Of a stretch of 64,000 nucleotides of DNA, positions 11,773 through 14,773 are shown in pieces. Every line of letters begins with the position of its first letter. Positions within the stretch are counted from its first letter, which is position 1. Both the position numbers and the translations under genes were made by a program. Source of the stretch: an uncultured Paracoccaceae bacterium (GTDB lineage Bacteria; Pseudomonadota; Alphaproteobacteria; Rhodobacterales; Rhodobacteraceae); contig CAMFGW010000004.1 in assembly GCA_945952025.1 (NCBI GenBank), forward strand, positions 1 to 64,000, in the 5' to 3' direction. The notes below the pieces were generated by a model that worked only from the letters and a program-made list of their open reading frames with translations, was not told the origin of the DNA and ran no database searches.

Positions 11773-12926
11773 TGTGGCGGCACGTCGCCTCGAACTTCCT
11801 GACGCTCGCGGTCGGGCTTTTGCTGGCCATCGGGGGCGTTGTCGCCTGGGCGAAGAGCCAGTATGTCAAGCCCGGGCCCCTGGCGCAGGCGATCTGCCTG
11901 AAGGTCGAGAAGGGATCGAATTTCCGCAAGGTTGCCGATCAGTTGGAAGCGCGGGGGGCGGTGAGCTATCCCTATATCTTCCGGGTCGGCGCGGATTACA
12001 GCGGGCGGACCAAGGGTCTGAAGGCCGGGTCCTACCTGGTGCCGGCGGGCGCCTCGATGGAGGCGATCGTGGTGCAGGTGACCGGCACGGGCGTGTCGAC
12101 CTGCGGCGCCGAGATCAACTACCGGATCGGGGTGACCGGGACGGATGTGGTCATCAGCGAGCTTGACCCGGCGTCGGGCGAGATGGCCGAGAAGGCGAAG
12201 TTCGATCCGGTGGCCGGGCCGGTTCCCGACATCTACAAGCAGATGCTCGACAGCGGGGATGCGCGGGTTGCGGTGACGGTCGCGGAAGGTGCGACGAGCT
12301 GGCAGATCATCGACGCCCTGTCGCGGGCGCCCTTGCTGACGGGCGCGGTCAAGGACGTGCCGGCCGAGGGCACTCTTGCGCCGCAGCAGTATGAGATTGC
12401 GAAGAACCAGACGCGCGCGGATCTGGTTTCGGAGATGCTGGCGAACCAGTCGGCGATCCTGAAGAAGGCCTGGGACGGGCGGGCGGAAGGCCTGCCCTAC
12501 AAGGCGCCCGAGGAGGCGCTGGTCATGGCCTCGCTCATCGAGAAGGAGACGGGCGTGCCGGCCGAGCGGGCCCATGTGGCGAGCGTGTTCCTGAACCGGA
12601 TGGCGCAGGGCATGAAGCTGCAGACCGACCCGGCGGTGATCTACGGGATCACCAAGGGGCAGGGCGTCCTGGGGCGGGGCCTCAGGCAGAGCGAGCTGAA
12701 GGCGAAGACGCCTTTCAACACCTATGTGATTGATGGGCTGCCGCCGTCGCCGATTGCCAATCCGGGTGCGGCGGCGATCGAGGCGGCTGTGCATCCGGAT
12801 GTGACGAAGGACCTGTTCTTCGTGGCGGACGGGACGGGCGGGCATGTCTTTGCCGAGACGCTCGACGAGCATAACCGCAATGTCGCCAAGTGGCGGGCGA
12901 TCGAGGCGCAGCAGGGCGGGGGTTAA
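11772..12926 (+). CDS. mltG: Endolytic transglycosylase MltG
   Basis: N-terminal TM, ASLIEKETGVPAERAHVASVFLNRM and TPFNTYVIDGLPPSPIANPG (YceG motifs); ATGA overlap with fabF. Confidence 0.93.
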   Translation: MWRHVASNFLTLAVGLLLAIGGVVAWAKSQYVKPGPLAQAICLKVEKGSNFRKVADQLEARGAVSYPYIFRVGADYSGRTKGLKAGSYLVPAGASMEAIVVQVTGTGVSTCGAEINYRIGVTGTDVVISELDPASGEMAEKAKFDPVAGPVPDIYKQMLDSGDARVAVTVAEGATSWQIIDALSRAPLLTGAVKDVPAEGTLAPQQYEIAKNQTRADLVSEMLANQSAILKKAWDGRAEGLPYKAPEEALVMASLIEKETGVPAERAHVASVFLNRMAQGMKLQTDPAVIYGITKGQGVLGRGLRQSELKAKTPFNTYVIDGLPPSPIANPGAAAIEAAVHPDVTKDLFFVADGTGGHVFAETLDEHNRNVAKWRAIEAQQGGG

Positions 12927-12937
12927 CGAAACCCTAA
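12923..12937. promoter_or_regulatory. Possible CtrA-like half-matching site TTAA-N7-CTAA
   Basis: TTAACGAAACCCTAA at the mltG stop codon, 40 bp upstream of the GTA -35 box. Confidence 0.3.
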
Positions 12938-12976
12938 AGCTGCGCGCGGTAAGTCTTTGATCGGCATGTATTTTTC

Positions 12977-13005
12977 TTGACTTGCCGAACGGACTTCCGT
13001 ATAGG
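12977..13005 (+). promoter_or_regulatory. Putative GTA operon promoter TTGACT-N17-TATAGG
   Basis: TTGACT at 12977-12982, 17-bp spacer, TATAGG at 13000-13005, only clear promoter in the mltG-g1 gap. Confidence 0.65.
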
Positions 13006-13012
13006 TTCTGAC

Positions 13013-13105
13013 ATGATGAGAAAAATGGGCGAGCGGCGGCGGGGTGACCCGGTTCGCCGCTTTGTCGTCTGTAGCCGCCCCAGGCGATCGGGGCCGCGCG
13101 GGTAG
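13013..13105 (+). CDS. Putative leader peptide / uORF of the GTA transcript (MMRKMGERRRGDPVRRFVVCSRPRRSGPRG)
   Basis: 30 codons, ATG about 8 nt after the -10 box, 10 Arg codons, overlaps a GC-rich hairpin. Confidence 0.35.
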   Translation: MMRKMGERRRGDPVRRFVVCSRPRRSGPRG

Positions 13106-13137
13106 GGTCAGCGTCGGGGGCGCGCCGGGAGGGTATC

Positions 13138-13491
13138 ATCAACGGGGACGAGGCCGAAGGGCCGGGGCAGCAGTCAGCGACTGCGCCGCCGGAAGATCTG
13201 TGCCGGCGCCTGGCGGACGAGGCCATCGCACTGACGAGTGCGCTGGAGGTCGAGGGTGCCGAAATGCGTGAGGGGTCGGGCGGGGCGCGCTACCTGCGTG
13301 CCGCGCTGAGGCTTCTGTTGGAAGAGGAGACCGGGTTTGGGACGACGGACGTTGAAGACCGGGGCCCAGGCGGCGCCGACGGCGAGCGGCGGGGCGGAGA
13401 CGGAGCGCTCGATCTTGATGCAGCGCGGGCTGAGGTCGGGCGGCGCCTGGCTCGCCTCCGCGACGCAGGAGGAGGTCGAGAGCTTTCTTGA
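13138..13491 (+). CDS. GTA g1, small terminase (TerS)-like; start uncertain (ATC at 13138 after GGGAGG, or ATG at 13264)
   Basis: Position immediately before TerL; frame reads INGDEAEGPGQQSATAPPEDLCRRLADEAIALTSALEVEGAEMREGSGGARYLRAALRLLLEEETG...; overlaps TerL as in RcGTA-type clusters. Confidence 0.6.
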   Translation: MNGDEAEGPGQQSATAPPEDLCRRLADEAIALTSALEVEGAEMREGSGGARYLRAALRLLLEEETGFGTTDVEDRGPGGADGERRGGDGALDLDAARAEVGRRLARLRDAGGGRELS

Positions 13492-14773
13492 CGGGCTGAG
13501 CCCCAACGCGCTCTTGTCGCTGCCGTGGCTGTTCGAGGTCTGGGCGCTGCCGCACCAGTTGCCGCCGCCGGGGGCCTGGAAGACCTGGGTCATCATGGGC
13601 GGGCGCGGAGCGGGCAAGACGCGGGCCGGGGCAGAATGGGTCAGGGCCGAGGTCGAGGGGGCGGGGCCTGCGGACCCCGGTCGGGCGCGGCGGGTGGCGC
13701 TGGTGTCGGAAACGGTCGACCAGGCACGCGAGGTGATGGTTTTTGGCGACAGCGGCATCCTTGCCTGCACGCCGCCCGACCGGCGCCCGGTCTGGGAGGC
13801 GACGCGGCGGCGGCTCGTCTGGCCGAACGGGGCCGTGGCGCAGGTCTTTTCGGCGCATGACCCGGAGAGCCTGAGGGGGCCGCAGTTCGATGCGGCCTGG
13901 GTAGATGAGCTGGCGAAGTGGAAGCGGGCGGCCGAGACCTGGGACATGCTGCAGTTCGCGCTGCGGCTCGGGACCAGCCCGCGTCAGGTGGTCACGACGA
14001 CGCCGCGCAATGTCGAGGTGTTGAAGGCGGTGCTGAAGAACCCCTCGACGGTCCTGACGCAGGCGCCGACCGAGGCGAACCGGGCCTGGCTCGCGCCCTC
14101 GTTCCTGGAAGAGGTGCGGGCGCGCTATGGCGGCACGCGGCTTGGGCGGCAGGAGCTGGACGGGGTGCTGCTGGAAGAGGCGGAAGGCGCGCTCTGGACC
14201 CGGGCGGTGATCGAGCGGGCGCGGGGCGAGGCGCCGGGGAGTTTCAGCCGGGTGGTGGTTGCGGTCGATCCGTCTGTCGCCGGGCAGGCCGGTGGCGACG
14301 AATGCGGGATTGTGGTGGCGGGGGTCCAGAGTGATGGGCCGGCGTCCGAATGGCGGGCCTGGGTGATCGAGGATGCGACGATGGCCGGTGGCTCGCCGCA
14401 GGCCTGGGCCGAGGCGGTCGTGGCGGCCTATCGGCGGCATGGCGCGAGCCGGGTCGTGGCCGAGGTGAACCAGGGGGGGGCGCTGGTCGAGGCGCTGATG
14501 CGGTCGGTCGACGCCTTCCTGCCGGTGACGAAGGTGCAGGCGGCGCAGGGCAAGGCCGCCCGGGCCGAGCCGGTGGCGGCGCTTTATGAGCAGGGCCGGG
14601 TGGCCCATGTGCGGGGCCTTGGCGCGCTTGAGGACCAGATGTGCCGGATGGGGCGCGGCGGCTATGAGGGGCGGGGCAGTCCGGACCGGGTCGATGCGCT
14701 GGTCTGGGCGCTGACGGATCTGATGATCGTGCCGGCGCGCGGCAGGGGCGTGCCGCAGATGCGGAGCCTTTGA
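13418..14773 (+). CDS. GTA g2, large terminase (TerL)
   Basis: Walker A WVIMGGRGAGKTRAGAEWVRAEV; AAWVDELAKWKR; nuclease-domain AVDPSVAGQAGGDECGIVVAG. Confidence 0.93.
   Translation: MQRGLRSGGAWLASATQEEVESFLDGLSPNALLSLPWLFEVWALPHQLPPPGAWKTWVIMGGRGAGKTRAGAEWVRAEVEGAGPADPGRARRVALVSETVDQAREVMVFGDSGILACTPPDRRPVWEATRRRLVWPNGAVAQVFSAHDPESLRGPQFDAAWVDELAKWKRAAETWDMLQFALRLGTSPRQVVTTTPRNVEVLKAVLKNPSTVLTQAPTEANRAWLAPSFLEEVRARYGGTRLGRQELDGVLLEEAEGALWTRAVIERARGEAPGSFSRVVVAVDPSVAGQAGGDECGIVVAGVQSDGPASEWRAWVIEDATMAGGSPQAWAEAVVAAYRRHGASRVVAEVNQGGALVEALMRSVDAFLPVTKVQAAQGKAARAEPVAALYEQGRVAHVRGLGALEDQMCRMGRGGYEGRGSPDRVDALVWALTDLMIVPARGRGVPQMRSL

Follow-up and report, generated by a model that had tools for sequence, protein, structure and literature searches.

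A conserved promoter-proximal terminator candidate in the leader of Paracoccaceae GTA clusters and its possible bypass by GafA

In Caulobacter crescentus, GafZ, a homologue of the C-terminal part of GafA, antiterminates and binds between the -10 and -35 elements (PMC11150451). The Caulobacter GafY/GafZ system resembles the locus studied here: the GTA is homologous, the activator carries DUF6456, and an element lies between -10 and -35 (PMC11150451). In both systems a terminator, predicted in the present case, precedes most of the cluster; for CcGTA, antitermination has been shown experimentally (PMC11150451). The Caulobacter terminator consists of three 150-bp repeats after the first gene, whereas the one described here would be one short hairpin immediately behind the start site. 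GafA, unlike GafY and GafZ, is one fused protein and also binds RNAP omega. The model of the Paracoccaceae element gave only marginal matches outside the family. In Pseudomonas aeruginosa, the terminators at AlpA targets begin at +26 and +54 (PMC7969949). The AlpA system shares with the GTA leader its promoter-proximal intrinsic terminators and a binding element between -10 and -35, and with GTA control its links to ppGpp and to a lytic programme (PMC7969949). AlpA is nevertheless a different regulator with different target genes. The lambdoid PR'-tR' unit with Q has a similar order of parts: promoter, possible pause, terminator and late (terminase, structural) genes. The lambda terminator lies further downstream than that of the GTA leader. 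GafZ does not resemble Q in sequence or structure, and no such resemblance to AlpA is reported (PMC11150451). Leader-peptide attenuators of the trp/his type also hold a terminator within the leader; here, in contrast, there is neither a conserved leader peptide nor a biosynthetic operon downstream.

GafA itself has been studied in Rhodobacter capsulatus. In EMSA it bound one of five probes, located 76-125 bp upstream of the g1 start and containing the -10 and the transcription start site (PMC6363796). The C-terminal part (GafA-C) binds the same fragment as well as the gafA promoter, and GafA makes contact with both RNAP omega and the core promoter. GafA is homologous to GafZ (PMC9632790), and a possible unrecognised antitermination activity of GafA was suggested by Tran and Le. 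A text search of two R. capsulatus GafA papers found no mention of a terminator; no earlier description of the leader element was found in the literature covered, which is incomplete.

The window is a stretch of 64,000 nucleotides from an uncultured Paracoccaceae bacterium (contig CAMFGW010000004.1). A first-pass annotation had noted an Arg-rich ORF overlapping a hairpin at the 5' end of the predicted GTA transcript, and had likened the two to an attenuator-type leader that would tie GTA expression to translation or arginine supply. Its description of the sequence is accurate: the -10 ends at 13005, ATGs lie at 13013 and 13016, the ORF has 30 codons including 10 Arg codons (translation MMRKMGERRRGDPVRRFVVCSRPRRSGPRG), and the hairpin GCGGCG...CGCCGC is followed by TTTGTCG. 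The two promoter hexamers are 17 nt apart. A ready-made promoter scan with a strict -10 rule missed this promoter. The R. capsulatus GTA start site maps inside the 50 bp homologous to the window promoter region (PMC6363796); this mapping and the position of the -10 place +1 of the window probably near 13012. Features are collected in Table 1.

Table 1. Features of the GTA leader and of the first genes behind it (window coordinates)
Feature	Position	Strand	Basis or remark
-35 hexamer TTGACT of the GTA promoter	12977..12982	+	TTGAC invariant across 80 aligned leaders
Conserved spacer motif CGnnCGgtc (window: CGAACGGAC)	12986..12994	+	Column conservation; candidate GafA-C binding element
-10 hexamer TATAGG	13000..13005	+	Conserved TAnA
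Start-site block, consensus CAnGCTrGrAGArrTGGGC (window: CATGATGAGAAAAATGGGC)	13012..13030	+	Alignment of leaders
Reported 30-codon ORF	13013..13105	+	Judged non-functional: not conserved
Predicted terminator hairpin: lower stem GCGGCG/CGCCGC, upper stem CGGG/CCCG, GTGA loop	13033..13060	+	Covariation, folding, Infernal model
T tract of terminator, degraded in window (TTTGTCGTC; usual TTTTTCATTTC)	13061..13069	+	Leader alignment
Possible second leader hairpin GCCCC/GGGGC	13077..13094	+	In the place of the CTCGTGC/GCATGAG stem of relatives; weak
g1 (small terminase) frame	13135..13491	+	Alignment with relatives; no Pfam match
g2, large terminase (TerL), first well-conserved gene of the GTA cluster	13352..14773	+	Pfam Terminase_6N, Terminase_6C

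Searching 61 genomes with the window TerL recovered 29 loci besides that of the window. Another 80, including R. capsulatus SP108 (L056), came from named genomes scanned with a TerL alignment. One block is common to most of these loci in the DNA upstream of g1. Removal of duplicates left 89 leaders that could be anchored, of which 80 were aligned. Along the alignment follow TTGAC, the CGnnCG spacer, TAnA, CAnGCTrGrAGArrTGGGC, a GC-rich hairpin, TTTTTC and, mostly, ATTTC or GTTTC. What is conserved is a set of nucleotide signals: promoter, spacer motif, start-site block, and hairpin with T tract. No Rfam model matched positions 12000-14000 of the window at E values up to 1.

Sequence evidence supports well the reading of hairpin and T tract as a conserved intrinsic terminator. 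Under a fixed rule (a single hairpin of -14 kcal/mol or better with a T tract directly behind it), a terminator was predicted in 71 of 89 leaders. The same rule picked out 26 of 890 dinucleotide-shuffled leaders, 17 of 1780 windows drawn at random from these loci, and 2 of the 89 leaders when read on the reverse strand. Among 43 leaders added later, which stood outside both the alignment and the model, 35 had one. Most leaders that fail the rule still have the hairpin but a weaker T tract behind it, and the window, with its TTTGTCG, is one of these. The six pairs of the lower stem are standard in 92% of cells across the 80 leaders, and in five of them both sides have changed. Covariation in the stem was 0.366, against 0.146 in column shuffles (reached in 0 of 500), which do not control for relatedness, and at most 0.136 with slid partners, a control that keeps it. 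Further terminators within the GTA cluster of the window show no excess over shuffles.

The RNA that has passed the hairpin may have structure of its own. An outer helix, GAArTG with CrTTTC, pairs the start-site block with bases beyond the T tract; 87% of its cells are paired, against at most 67% for slid partners, and covariation is modest. It extends the terminator stem and does not compete with it, and it could form only in RNA already past the terminator. Many leaders also have a second stem, CTCGTGC/GCATGAG, before g1, which is weak in the window. These helices would suit a hairpin that works mainly in passed RNA, stabilising the GTA mRNA or regulating its translation, with termination secondary. 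We regard this as very unlikely: the T tract ranks among the most conserved parts of the leader by column conservation, and mRNA stability does not need it.

Intrinsic terminators stop transcription from any source, and this one could in principle serve as an insulator that blocks read-through from mltG or damps leaky transcription from the GTA promoter itself. GafA would then act at initiation only, in keeping with its contacts to RNAP omega and core promoter. However, the hairpin lies downstream of the GTA start, so all GTA transcripts must cross it. It is also held at a fixed distance from the promoter among leaders, behind a conserved block. A separate terminator stands before the -35 in 12 of the 89 loci, R. 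capsulatus included, and 11 of these 12 keep a full-strength terminator in the GTA leader as well, which makes it unlikely that the hairpin is simply the terminator of the upstream gene. A role in insulation or damping alone is in our judgement improbable.

The Arg-rich ORF is of a length that chance would give. When the downstream sequence was shuffled by dinucleotides, 61% of frames started by the ATG stayed open for at least 30 codons (P = 0.61). An Arg content of at least one third is less common (3% of shuffled ORFs; 5 of 99 window ATG ORFs of 25-40 aa). It is mainly the GC-rich hairpin (CGG CGG CGG) that supplies the Arg codons of the window ORF, which is a by-product of this conserved structure. 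Its ATG lies in the start-site block, at the CAnG position, and is not conserved. Among 88 related leaders the triplet there is ATG in 57, AAG in 20, ACG in 7 and AGG in 4 (the n of CAnG is T in 64% of leaders), and ATG occurs in 20 of the 41 anchorable leaders among 43 further ones. Where the ATG is present, the ORF has anything from 3 to 139 codons, with a median Arg content of 15%. The stop codon often falls inside the hairpin, and distances from ATG to the end of the stem are spread over the three frames (31/28/21). Codon positions 1, 2 and 3 carry on average 1.36, 1.40 and 1.33 bits of information, which is no codon periodicity.

Nothing in these leaders points to selection on a leader peptide: its ATG, length, frame, Arg content and stop are not conserved. 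The proposal that translation of the ORF senses arginine or translation itself, and so decides termination at the hairpin, drew on the overlap of 10 Arg codons in 30 with a terminator-like hairpin; the recurrence of ATG at one place in most of the 88 leaders also speaks for it. The preference for T at this place would also fit a TG extended -10-like motif, the conserved features of a peptide and a codon signature are absent, and a stop inside the hairpin is a further difficulty. A leader-peptide attenuator is extremely unlikely here. The expected conservation of ORF and Arg content upstream of g1 was not found in relatives, which keep neither length nor frame, and the tie to arginine supply is not supported, given the low Arg content and the lack of a conserved run of regulatory codons. 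The first-pass annotation was nearer the mark in seeing an attenuator-like leader: a promoter-proximal intrinsic terminator does appear to be present and is widely conserved.

The promoter side of the leader points to GafA. The CGnnCG motif sits between -35 and -10, where QBE, ABE and ZBE sit, and falls within the homologue of the 50-bp fragment to which GafA binds in R. capsulatus. A longer palindrome at this site was considered and rejected, as only the CGnnCG core is symmetric and the flanking columns are non-complementary. Placed on L056, the 76-125 bp interval reads CTTTGCGGACGCTCTAAGGTAGAGATAAGGCATGCTAGGAGAGGTGGGCA, followed directly by AGCGCAACGGGAAACCGTTTGCGCTTTTTTC. The DNA bound by GafA therefore covers exactly three conserved parts, namely spacer, -10 and block, and stops at the base of the predicted terminator. 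Within the initially transcribed region T(A/G)GrAG is conserved: about 40% of leaders have TAGrAG and the rest TGGrAG, a sequence that is only partly -10-like. A sigma-dependent pause element of the lambda Q type is only weakly suggested.

DUF6456, the GafA/GafZ domain, was found in 272 of 298 genomes of the family. The window genome encodes a single DUF6456 protein, the gafA homologue, with an open frame of 447 aa. A CtrA-type site, TTAAC-N6-GTAAC, lies upstream of it (L143 593-608) and is similar to the CtrA site reported for the R. capsulatus gafA promoter (PMC6363796). The leader element was not detected at the gafA promoter of the window genome; since GafA-C also binds the gafA promoter, this counts against the antitermination reading. 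The GTA leader shares three parts with units of the Q, AlpA and GafZ type: a predicted terminator near the start, weakened in the window copy, a conserved element between -35 and -10, and a homologue of an antiterminator in the genome.

We think it probable that the leader is a promoter-proximal terminator which GafA bypasses as an antiterminator like Q, AlpA and GafZ. Within the leader of the GTA operon, the terminator would lie about 18-55 nt behind the transcription start. RNA polymerase that sets out from the GTA promoter in the absence of the activator would mostly halt at this point, releasing an RNA of about 55 nt; such a stop in vivo is predicted from the sequence. GafA would bind from -35 to about +16, over the spacer motif and the initially transcribed block, aid initiation and then join the early elongation complex. 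The complex carrying GafA would pass the hairpin and go on to transcribe the head and tail genes, in the manner of Q, AlpA and Caulobacter GafZ. Position, homology and co-occurrence are what suggest that GafA overrides the terminator. Its effect at the GTA promoter could be on initiation alone, because GafA is also thought to activate via recruitment of RNAP. We propose only tentatively, and with more doubt than conviction, that GafA is both an initiation factor and an antiterminator, with the leader as its loading site, made up of the spacer motif together with the block, the latter being something other than an ordinary sigma pause.

The window copy is a poor representative of the element, since its T tract is broken, its start-site block has diverged (at GCT) and its g1 lacks an ordinary start codon. 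Termination in the window species may be leaky because of the weakened T tract. At the expected g1 start (13127-13140) there is no ATG, GTG or TTG; ATC ATC (13135-13140) stands where relatives have ATG. A strong Shine-Dalgarno-like GGGAGGG precedes it. Either an AUC start is used, or translation begins at the ATG at 13264 and gives a truncated protein, or the gene is decaying. The genes for TerL, portal, protease and capsid have open frames that match their respective families. The degradation of the window copy may reflect relaxed selection in this species.

With a covariance model, the element was found in 221 of 298 family genomes (essentially one per genus), usually as a single match; it is common to most genera examined. 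TerL was found in 245 of the same genomes, and pairs compared by hand have about 260-290 nt between the end of the element and the TerL match. The window genome has one match (E = 7e-17; next best 0.08); no second good match, as might mark other GafA targets, turned up elsewhere in it. The element is not required everywhere, as about one quarter of the genomes are without it, some of them with an intact TerL. Three loci (L020, L022, L023) have an intact TerL behind another leader, with CATACAGGCAAnnAAGGTrTCGAG before g1 and no terminator; here the element has apparently been lost. Four genomes with the element but no full TerL match (G083, G071, G133, G140) proved to hold GTA remnants with a truncated or internally deleted TerL, and not other operons. 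In the remnants L137, L138, L139 and L140 the leader element is intact and the truncated TerL is joined to downstream tail genes or other sequence.

A class-wide search with the model gave strong scores only in the family; matches outside it were marginal, with E above 1e-4. Among other alphaproteobacterial TerL loci, mostly from other families, 1 of 11 had a terminator after a promoter-like site. One marginal match (L142 976-1930, from G434 of another family) has a promoter-like site and a short terminator about 330 nt before an HTH (TerS-like) gene and an apparent GpA-type large terminase gene, a prophage layout that resembles the GTA leader.

The element is a compact genomic marker of the GTA promoter. 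Antitermination by GafA has so far been suggested only by its homology to GafZ, and the terminator predicted in R. capsulatus makes that suggestion directly testable. If GafA does load at the leader as such a dual factor, the leader would represent an antitermination signal of a new type that most genera of the family have in common, with an input from RNAP omega and, through it, perhaps from ppGpp. Such control, if true, would explain how an operon lethal to the cell is kept silent behind an apparently good sigma-70 promoter.
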